From assembly GCF_014647115.1 (NCBI RefSeq), contig NZ_BMOO01000001.1:124001-188000 (forward strand): a stretch of DNA of 64,000 nt, read 5' to 3'. The stretch comes from Halarchaeum rubridurum (GTDB lineage Archaea > Halobacteriota > Halobacteria > Halobacteriales > Halobacteriaceae). A program made the position numbers and the translations under genes. Below, in pieces: positions 42,332-44,331 of the stretch (position 1 is the first letter of the stretch; every line of letters starts with the position of its first letter). The notes below the pieces were generated by a model. It had not been told where the DNA came from, made no database searches, and saw only the letters and a program-made list of their open reading frames with translations.

Positions 42332-42408
42332 CGCCGCTCACCCCGCTCGTGCGTGCGTGCGTTCGCGTGTGCGTGCTCGTGTCCGTCTCCGAATCCGTGT
42401 CCGTTCAT
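42328..42408 (-). CDS. 26-codon His-rich ORF linking ilvB and ilvN
   Basis: The reading frame runs from ATG 42408 to TGA 42328-42330. It encodes 26 residues with five histidines within a 17-residue span (HGFGDGHEHAHANARTH), and Arg/Glu at the end. The ATG overlaps the ilvB stop by 4 bases, and its TGA overlaps the ilvN ATG by 4 bases, so it bridges the pair with two ATGA junctions. The DNA is a CGTGCGTGCG/GTGTCC-like quasi-repeat. It may be a translational coupling device, a metal-binding micro-protein, or chance. I do not recognise a homologue. Confidence 0.5.
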   Translation of the reverse strand: MNGHGFGDGHEHAHANARTHERGERR

Positions 42409-44138
42409 AGGTGCTCCTCCTGCAGGGCGAACAGCCCGTTCGCGCCGCCGCTCGCGACCATCGGGTAGACGTCCTCGCGCGGGTCGATGTGGCAGTCGAT
42501 GACGCTGGGGCCGTCGTAGTCGCGCGCCGCCGCGATGGTGTCCGCGACGTCGTCGTAGTCGTCGAGCGTGAAGCCCGCAGCGCCGAACGCCTCGGCGAGC
42601 GTGGCGAAGTCCGGCCCCCACGGGTACTCGGAGGCCATCCGGCGCCCCTCGAAGAAGGCGTCCTGCCACTGTCGGACCATCCCGACGGCCTCGTTGTTGA
42701 GGACGCAGACCGTGAGGTCGAGGTTCTCGCGGACCGCGACGGAGAGCCCCTGGACGGTCATCAGGAAGGAGCCGTCGCCGTCGAAGCAGACGACCTCCTG
42801 GTCGGGGGCGGCGACCTTCGCGCCGATGGCGGCGGGGAGGCCGTACCCCATCGTCCCGAGGCCGTGACTGGATATCCACGTCCGGGGTTCGGTGAACGTC
42901 CAGTACTGGACGGCCCACATCTGGTGTTGGCCGACGCCCGTGGTGACGATGGTGTCCGCGTCCGTCGCCTCGTCGAACGCCTCGACGACGAACTGCGGTT
43001 TGAGCGGTTCGTCCTCGGGGGCGTCGTAGTCCATCGGATACTCGTCTTTCCACTCGGCGCACCGCTCGCGCCACGCCGCGGCGTCGGGCGAGCGGGGGAG
43101 CGCGTCGTCGAGCTGGCGCAGCACCGTGCTCGCGTCGCCGACGAGCGGGTAGTCCGCGTGGACGTTCTTCGAAATCTCGGAGGCGTCGATGTCGACGTGG
43201 ATGACCTCGGCCTCGGGCGCGAACGTGTCGACGCCGCCGGTGAGGCGGTCGTCGAAGCGCGTGCCGACGCCGAGCAGCACGTCGCAGTGCGTGATGGCCA
43301 TGTTCGCGTAGCCCGTGCCGTGCATCCCCGCCATCTCCATGGCGAGGTCGTGGGTCTCGTCGAACGCGCCGACGCCCGGCATCGTCGTGATGACCGGGAT
43401 GCCGTGGTCGACGGCGAACTGCCGCAGTTCGTCGGTCGCCTCGCCCTTGATGACGCCGCCGCCGGCGAGGATGGCGGGCCGCTCCGCGTCCGCGAGCGCG
43501 TGTGCCGCACGGCTGACCTCCTCGGCGTCGGCCTCGTCCGGAATGTCCTGCGTCTCCGGGCCCTCCGCGGGGCCGGGGCGCGCGACGTCCTCGGCGTTCG
43601 AGACGTCCTTCGGAAGGTCGACGAGCGTCGGGCCCTGGCGGCCGTCGCGGGCGAGCGCGAACGCCTCGCCGACGGTGTCGCCGACGGTGTCCGGGTCGCT
43701 CGCGAAGTAACTCGACTTCGTGACGGGGCGGGTGATGCCGGTCGTGTCCGCCTCCTGGAAGGCGTCGTTGCCGACCATCTCGGTGGCGACCTGCCCCGTC
43801 AGGGCCAGCACCGGCTCCGAGTCCATGTCGGCGTCGGCGATGCCGGTGACGAGGTTGGTCGCGCCGGGGCCGGACGTCGCCAGGCAGACGCCCGGCTCGC
43901 CCGTGACGGCGCCGTAGGCGTCGGCGGCGTGAGCCGCGCCCTGTTCGTGCGCCATCGTGACGTGGTGGATGTCGCTCTGGTAGAGCGCGTCGTAGATGGG
44001 CATGATCGCCCCGCCCTGCACGCCGAAGGCGGCCTCGACGCCGGCGTCCTCCAGTGCGGTCACGACGGACGACGCACCCGTCGGTAGCGTCTCCGCCTCG
44101 TCGCGGTCAGTGGTTCGTTCTGGTTCGCTCTCGCTCAT
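42405..44138 (-). CDS. ilvB: Acetolactate synthase, large (catalytic) subunit
   Basis: A 577-residue ThDP-dependent enzyme. The N-terminal catalytic Glu lies in FGVQGGAIMPIYDAL with HEQGAAHAADAYGAVTGEPGVCLATSGPGATNLVTG. The ThDP-binding motif GDGSFLMTVQGLSVAVRENLDLTVCVLNN (GDG...NN) is near residue 455. It condenses pyruvate with pyruvate or 2-oxobutyrate. It is the first long gene of the ilv-leu operon. The 80-base gap after the leader ORF has no Shine-Dalgarno sequence before ATG 44138, so its initiation may depend on upstream translation. Confidence 0.97.
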   Translation of the reverse strand: MSESEPERTTDRDEAETLPTGASSVVTALEDAGVEAAFGVQGGAIMPIYDALYQSDIHHVTMAHEQGAAHAADAYGAVTGEPGVCLATSGPGATNLVTGIADADMDSEPVLALTGQVATEMVGNDAFQEADTTGITRPVTKSSYFASDPDTVGDTVGEAFALARDGRQGPTLVDLPKDVSNAEDVARPGPAEGPETQDIPDEADAEEVSRAAHALADAERPAILAGGGVIKGEATDELRQFAVDHGIPVITTMPGVGAFDETHDLAMEMAGMHGTGYANMAITHCDVLLGVGTRFDDRLTGGVDTFAPEAEVIHVDIDASEISKNVHADYPLVGDASTVLRQLDDALPRSPDAAAWRERCAEWKDEYPMDYDAPEDEPLKPQFVVEAFDEATDADTIVTTGVGQHQMWAVQYWTFTEPRTWISSHGLGTMGYGLPAAIGAKVAAPDQEVVCFDGDGSFLMTVQGLSVAVRENLDLTVCVLNNEAVGMVRQWQDAFFEGRRMASEYPWGPDFATLAEAFGAAGFTLDDYDDVADTIAAARDYDGPSVIDCHIDPREDVYPMVASGGANGLFALQEEHL

Positions 44139-44212
44139 TGTGTGGTGTGTGTGGTGCGGTCGCTGATCGGTCGGTCGGCCGGTACTGACGGTCGGGGAGG
44201 ATGAGGAGAGAG

Positions 44213-44226
44213 GGGGCTTACGCCCC
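44213..44226. promoter_or_regulatory. Hairpin at the leader-ORF stop codon
   Basis: On the minus strand the RNA reads GGGGC-GUAA-GCCCC. The leader TAA stop codon is in the loop, and a CUCUCUCCUC pyrimidine tract follows. A ribosome terminating at that codon would melt the stem. It could be an attenuator element or a coincidence; the stem has only 5 bp. Confidence 0.4.
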
Positions 44227-44298
44227 TACGATGAACGTCGGGACGGCGGCGACGACGCTGCCCGAGAGACGGTCGGTCCGCGCGGTGGGTCGTCGCAT
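44218..44298 (-). CDS. Candidate leader peptide of the ilv-leu operon (26 residues)
   Basis: The ORF runs from ATG 44298 to TAA 44218-44220. The second half reads SGSVVAAVPTFIVGA, so Val, Ala and Ile codons concentrate before the stop; one Leu codon is also present. A TATA-like TTCAAATA at 44324-44331 would start the message about 3 bases before its ATG, making it the first, leaderless ORF of the ilv-leu mRNA, 80 bases before ilvB. A hairpin encloses its stop codon. This resembles bacterial branched-chain leader peptides in position, but it is an inference from one sequence. Confidence 0.45.
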   Translation of the reverse strand: MRRPTARTDRLSGSVVAAVPTFIVGA

Positions 44299-44323
44299 CG
44301 GTATCGGCTGTAGGCGTCGCTCC

Positions 44324-44331
44324 TATTTGAA
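44324..44331 (-). promoter_or_regulatory. TATA-like box of the ilv-leu operon
   Basis: On the minus strand, CGGGAAGG (BRE-like) precedes TTCAAATA. Counting 27 bases downstream from its centre gives a start near 44300, just before the leader ATG at 44298. leuA ends 44 bases away at 44375, so this promoter lies entirely in the leuA-ilvB gap and gives the ilv-leu operon its own transcript. Confidence 0.6.

Follow-up and report, generated by a model that had tools for sequence, protein, structure and literature searches.

A putative leader-peptide attenuator for valine and isoleucine upstream of ilvB and valS in Halobacteria

The window, the whole 64,000-nucleotide stretch of Halarchaeum rubridurum DNA analyzed here (contig NZ_BMOO01000001.1, positions 124,001 to 188,000), carries on its minus strand an operon in the order leuA-like, ilvB, ilvC, leuC, leuD and leuB (NCBIfam). 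The ilvB gene (42405-44138, ATG at 44138), assigned to TIGR00118 (2.6e-205; NCBIfam) and 97% and 90% identical to ilvB of two relatives (G005 and G003), is the first gene that the element described below would control. Upstream of it on the same strand lies a TATA-like box, TTCAAATA (44324-44331), with a BRE-like purine stretch adjoining its upstream side; from the sequence itself, and from a position weight matrix (PWM) and the distances in relatives, it is taken as the promoter of a leader whose ATG (44298) is placed 33 nt below it. This ATG opens an ORF of 26 codons, MRRPTARTDRLSGSVVAAVPTFIVGA (44218-44298), with homologous ORFs in 104 genomes. The proposed sensing codons ATC-GTA (Ile-Val, 44227-44232) adjoin the 5' arm of a GGGGC-GTAA-GCCCC hairpin (44213-44226; arms 44226-44222 and 44217-44213), the leader stop codon TAA (44220-44218) falls within the loop of this hairpin, and the 19 bases 3' of it (44194-44212) form a G-free, pyrimidine-rich tract, a candidate for termination or factor loading. 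No Shine-Dalgarno sequence precedes the ilvB ATG. An earlier note on this DNA had described the box, the ORF, the stop codon in the hairpin loop, the pyrimidines behind it and the missing Shine-Dalgarno sequence; all of these were found again, and every coordinate proved exact on re-reading. The leader ORF would be leaderless, with the 5' end of the transcript derived from the position of the promoter.

This single genome by itself makes a weak case for the leader. Two occurrences of the hairpin pattern were counted in the window where chance would give 1.4, the 164-nt leader fold has no excess stability over shuffles (z +0.9), and a simple scan found no classical T-run terminator after the hairpin. 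The string GTAGGGGC..GCCCC occurs once in the window against none in 100 shuffles, and an Rfam cmscan of the window at the gathering threshold returned tRNA only, with no riboswitch, T-box or ilvB motif. The earlier note had cautioned that the hairpin is short; by itself it stands at chance level in the window, but in the relatives the arms are conserved. It is this conservation across relatives that leads us to accept the leader as real.

ilvB was located in Halobacteriales genomes and the DNA upstream of it was read for a leader, the third base of the valine codon being left free in the scan. Under these terms the leader is present in all of the first 83 loci and in nearly all later ones, and the same architecture could be tabulated before ilvB in 104 Halobacteria genomes: a TATA box, a start codon at a near-fixed distance from it, a run of variable codons, Ile-Val(GTA)-Gly-Ala, a stop codon in the hairpin and about 17 nucleotides with almost no G. 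Among the named genomes 77 of 80 have it, including Haloferax (peptide MTSHDEHAVRATPDAGASDAAVGAIRSLIIVGA), Natrialba, Halosimplex and Halococcus, and a covariance model built on ilvB leaders only finds the ilvB site in 103 of 118 sampled genomes. The leaders begin with ATG in 101 of the 104 genomes and with GTG in 3, the distance from the start codon to GTA ranges from 15 to 34 codons, and the stop is TAG, TAA or TGA in different loops, in frame 9-24 nt from GTA; in 87 of 90 tabulated genomes the start of a TATA-like sequence falls between -29 and -36 relative to the leader start codon. In the AT-rich family f2 the peptide is MKAVVRTKNGLFVSCAAVQVSVGA and the arms are GGUGC/GCGCC, and in genus g7 of family f1 the arms are GGGCC/GGCCC with the ORF retained. 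The earlier note had made its proposal depend on conservation of the ORF in other Halobacteria with frame-preserving changes, and both were found overwhelmingly, since the start, the frame, the stop and the Ile-Val codons are kept across the order and changes of length, over 17 different lengths, keep the frame. Two deep families, f10 and f12, have no such leader before ilvB; there the match to leuA stops 450-570 nt before ilvB and the interval reads as coding up to near ilvB. Two loci of one genus (L124 and L127, f8 g43) have a leader that begins with GTG at the expected place. The few matches of the model outside Halobacteria are mostly marginal, and the best of them (G196, L304) lies elsewhere than at an ilv gene; a second match in the genome of the window (L138, contig C11) lies antisense in a transporter-like gene and was discarded as chance. 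A search with the peptide alone was also abandoned as a means of finding homologs, because the body of the peptide is variable and only chance matches were returned beyond the genus.

The relation between promoter and reading frame was examined with a PWM trained on half of the genomes and applied to the other half, in which the frame was not used. In 97 of 104 genomes the start expected from the PWM has an ATG no more than 6 nt away, and every one of these 97 promoter-located ATGs shares the frame of the GTA motif, across 17 different lengths, where chance would give one in three. With the TATA distance, this places a short ORF downstream of a promoter and upstream of the operon, as in an attenuator, and the frame is not unconstrained as it would be in an intrinsic terminator without a reading frame. 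Within the final 14 codons, isoleucine, leucine and valine together account for 39% in the leader frame and for 19% and 4% in the two others, and isoleucine alone for 13% against about 0.2%. Openness of the leader frame was dropped as proof of coding, the other two frames being open in 102 and 88 of the 104 genomes, and so was an excess of third-position substitutions, which the variable body does not show (248, 257 and 296 substitutions at the first, second and third codon positions); that lack is compatible with a leader peptide whose body may be unimportant and is not positive proof of translation. Leaderless initiation in haloarchaea has been reported to require AUG (PMC3986360), so the GTG starts of three leaders count against the leaderless reading. 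Taken as a whole, the sequence data strongly support a leader that would be specific for valine, and we infer that it is translated.

All leaders detected in the scan with a free third base have GTA immediately ahead of the GGGG arm. This is a rare codon: GTA accounts for 27 of 2145 valine codons (1.3%) in the ilvB starts of the same genomes and, in the window, for 1 of the 171 counted over four genes of the operon. Part of its constancy, not the whole, is due to base pairing of GUA with UAC, which is an insufficient explanation because the UAC partner is missing in many genomes. The codon before GTA specifies isoleucine in 84 of 90 genomes, and in 58 of those 84 it is ATT, which makes up 9% of the isoleucine codons of ilvB. 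End-product codons thus stand at the regulatory position, as expected of an attenuator, with an invariant GTA and a rare ATT before ilvB and valine only before valS (see below). The earlier note had seen a valine- and isoleucine-rich signal in the whole second half of the ORF, SGSVVAAVPTFIVGA; what is borne out is the final Ile-Val pair (ATY-GTA), valine above all, and not the whole stretch.

In over 20 of the 118 genomes the covariance model has a second site; in about 20 the site lies upstream of valS (E 1e-9 to 1e-3), and 17 of the 20 second sites that were read precede a valyl-tRNA synthetase gene (family NF009687, 5e-165). The valS leaders found by the model end in (F/V/R/L)-Val-Gly-Ala with GTA adjoining the arm, the isoleucine being lost. 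Other genomes, that of the window included, have a second type of valS, 42% identical, and before it the window genome carries a leader MRVAVAVVRR with tandem GTA-GTA (L160, G000:C4:347900-348600). Further leaders of this window-type valS read MRVVAVVRE, MSVAGPVVRR and MGLMSSVVR, a TATA box lies about 30 nt upstream of the tandem GTA-GTA leaders, and 24 of the 25 such leaders tabulated stand before the window-type valS and 1 before the other type. No conserved hairpin was found in the leaders of window-type valS; the leader of the window genome has a GUCGGU-AGAU-ACCGAC hairpin with the stop codon in its loop, which is not conserved in relatives. Two genomes (in f12 and f15) have a window-type valS with no leader. 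At three loci of family f5 (L170, L171 and L175) valS directly follows its TATA box while the ilvB leader is present, an apparent lineage-specific loss of the valS leader. At two further loci (L155, G054:C2:~397908; L159, G106:C1:~686110) an ilvB-like leader ending in LIVGV stands before a small protein, MADVDHTPPHEAPGANRVFERG.., which is neither ilvB nor valS and has no NCBIfam match. Neither ileS nor leuS, examined as controls, is preceded by a leader of this kind. The presence of leaders at valine synthesis and at valyl-tRNA charging, with none at ileS or leuS, suggests that the device tracks valine, and the fact that the valS element keeps valine and not isoleucine is fitted better by amino-acid sensing than by any other reading.

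The same data bear on the possibility that the C-terminal Ile-Val-Gly-Ala acts as an arrest peptide, in the manner of TnaC, rather than through codon-specific stalling. The peptides do end in a highly conserved IVGA or IVGV immediately ahead of the stop. Conservation, however, is at the level of the codon, GTA and ATT being kept over common synonyms, and the GGGGC arm itself imposes Gly-Ala; in the valS leaders, moreover, isoleucine gives way to phenylalanine, valine, arginine or leucine, and the window-type leaders end in Val-Val-Arg. We consider arrest by the peptide itself very improbable.

Pairing of the hairpin arms is supported by loops that vary from 3 to 9 nt between genomes with the complementarity of the arms kept, and by a few swapped arms (GGGCC/GGCCC in L029, L035, L195 and L226). 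Covariation within the commonest hairpin class is nil, because the arms do not vary within it. Behind the hairpin, G makes up 0-8% of positions +3 to +17 in about 100 genomes, with a T-rich YTTYTC around +12 to +15. The conserved hairpin and the G-free C/U tract with its T-rich centre may act as a terminator, with no classical T-run seen; Haloferax volcanii terminates at T-stretches ending in TC, and one hairpin tested in that species gave 59% termination (PMC7237163). No antiterminator is apparent among the single folds examined, the window's own leader folding no better than shuffles.

The near-invariant arms could also be taken to mean that the palindrome GTAGGGGC..GCCCCTAC, often extended to TGTAGGGGC..GCCCCTACA, is a DNA operator, for example of an Lrp/AsnC-type regulator, with the ORF incidental. 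Yet the spacing of the arms ranges from 3 to 9 nt, and the 3' arm is much less conserved than the 5' arm and the in-frame GTA. The start codon, the frame and the in-frame stop inside the loop are conserved as well, and the window-type valS leaders keep GTA-GTA with no palindrome, all of which makes an operator highly unlikely. We give an equally slight chance to a hairpin that simply terminates constitutively, or is a processing site, between leuA and ilvB, the ORF being accidental: the hairpin alone stands at chance level in the window and the body of the ORF has no codon signature, but the hairpin lies downstream of a promoter of its own, the ATG keeps the frame of the conserved codons without exception, and valS is preceded by the same element.

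Past the leader stop, mostly after 64-81 nt, comes the first ATG, which in 69 of 90 genomes (e.g. L045, L118 and L099) starts a second short ORF whose end coincides with the ATGA of ilvB and in 11 of 90, the genus of the window included, is that of ilvB itself. A motif G[CT]A[CT]CG is enriched at about 22-57 nt after the leader stop, mostly near 35: 53 of the 104 genomes have it, where shuffles predict 5.7, but it is not universal. The placement of the second ORF and of the ilvB ATG is compatible with an output through translational coupling, in addition to termination or in its place. The leader might, on this alternative, sense valine and isoleucine but act on translation or on the stability of the mRNA, in that stalling or release at the hairpin would gate the ribosomes that reach ilvB or the coupled second ORF; the 69 ORFs that end in the ilvB ATGA and the 11 first ATGs that are ilvB favor it, as do window-type valS leaders that have no conserved hairpin. 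Against it, the hairpin has no obvious pairing with the start of ilvB or of the second ORF, and the G-free tract behind the hairpin is more easily explained by termination. We regard an output of this kind as unlikely, though the most serious of the competing explanations.

We propose, as the probable reading, that a leader peptide attenuates the ilvB-ilvC-leuCDB operon of haloarchaea, ribosome stalling leading to read-through. Codon identity, the position of the hairpin and the nature of the target genes support this mechanism; the attenuator-like leader of the earlier note has gained the support of conservation and of valS, whereas ribosome stalling, and transcription termination as the output step, are what we infer from sequence. 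Transcription would begin on the leader ATG itself or only a few bases away from it, so that a ribosome loads on the 5' end and trails the RNA polymerase. If charged tRNA for valine (at the rare GTA) or for isoleucine (at the preceding codon) is scarce, the ribosome would stall there; because the GGGGC arm starts at the base next after GTA, a ribosome at Ile-Val would cover the arm with its mRNA channel, no hairpin would form and the polymerase would continue into ilvB. When valine and isoleucine are plentiful, the ribosome would reach the stop codon in the hairpin loop and depart, the hairpin would fold, and together with the G-free pyrimidine tract it would cause the transcript to be ended or processed. 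Such a scheme would work with no antiterminator, giving read-through on starvation and termination on sufficiency, and the valS leader would be a related device with valine codons only.

Ribosome-mediated attenuators control the branched-chain operons ilvBN, ilvGMEDA and leu of Escherichia coli. The haloarchaeal leader shares with them a short ORF between promoter and operon, end-product codons, rare regulatory codons and an adjoining hairpin, but it would be leaderless, with one or two sensing codons and not a run of them, and it has its stop codon inside the hairpin loop, no antiterminator that could be found and a C/U-rich G-free tract in place of a U-run. Bacterial aminoacyl-tRNA synthetase genes are controlled by leader peptides or by T-box RNAs, which bind tRNA directly. 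Common to that control and the present system would be a single charging signal that governs both a biosynthetic operon and the tRNA synthetase for the same amino acid, but the reader in haloarchaea would be a ribosome on a tiny ORF, whereas a T-box RNA binds the tRNA itself. In Corynebacterium, the ilvB-II motif of ilvBNC includes a conserved uORF enriched in branched-chain residues and attenuation has been proposed; it resembles our leader in having such a uORF upstream of ilvB and differs in being bacterial and in its sequence and structure (PMC10272879). The termination elements of H. volcanii likewise have T-stretches ending in TC and hairpins upstream of 3' ends, but they are gene-end signals, and the part of that report consulted describes no leader peptide or amino-acid control for them (PMC7237163). 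A 2021 paper states that attenuation was not then known in archaea (PMC8448881), and our search of openly accessible literature found no report of archaeal leader-peptide attenuation. Attenuation by a leader peptide is known from bacteria, and the archaeal, leaderless form with the stop in the hairpin would be new.

A second arrangement was seen at leuA. The promoter-proximal ATG of leuA opens an ORF, MSSNDIPGASPGERVLPGHISPQ (45599-45528, minus strand, in the window), and the leuA frame itself runs to 44375. This promoter-proximal ORF is +1 out of frame with leuA at 77 of the 78 leuA loci read (L180-L259), and three deep-family genomes (L305-L307, read by eye) have the same +1 arrangement; the ORF stops 17-35 nt past the junction, and nearly all loci read have no ATG in the leuA frame before its conserved start. 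The junction, GGGUCGAGUUCUUCCAGGG, is almost invariant and holds a rare leucine codon in frame 0 (CTT; TTG in the deep families). leuA is therefore a candidate for a cellular +1 programmed frameshift that may be linked to leucine; reviews list archaeal +1 frameshifting only for a virus (PMC8211752, PMC5009743).

As a tentative extension, to which we give somewhat less than even weight, GTA/ATT leaders in Halobacteria would attenuate ilvB and valS according to the charging of valine and isoleucine tRNA, while leuA, the gene of the cluster nearest its promoter, would be expressed through the conserved +1 frameshift beside a rare leucine codon and so provide a leucine sensor. The link to valS predicts that the main signal is valine and not leucine. 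Should this extension prove true, archaea would have their first described attenuation system and their first described +1 programmed frameshift in a cellular gene. A leader device kept through nearly all of the order Halobacteriales would provide direct evidence of functional transcription-translation coupling in archaea, and it would show that leader-peptide control arose with an archaeal polymerase and with leaderless ribosome loading.
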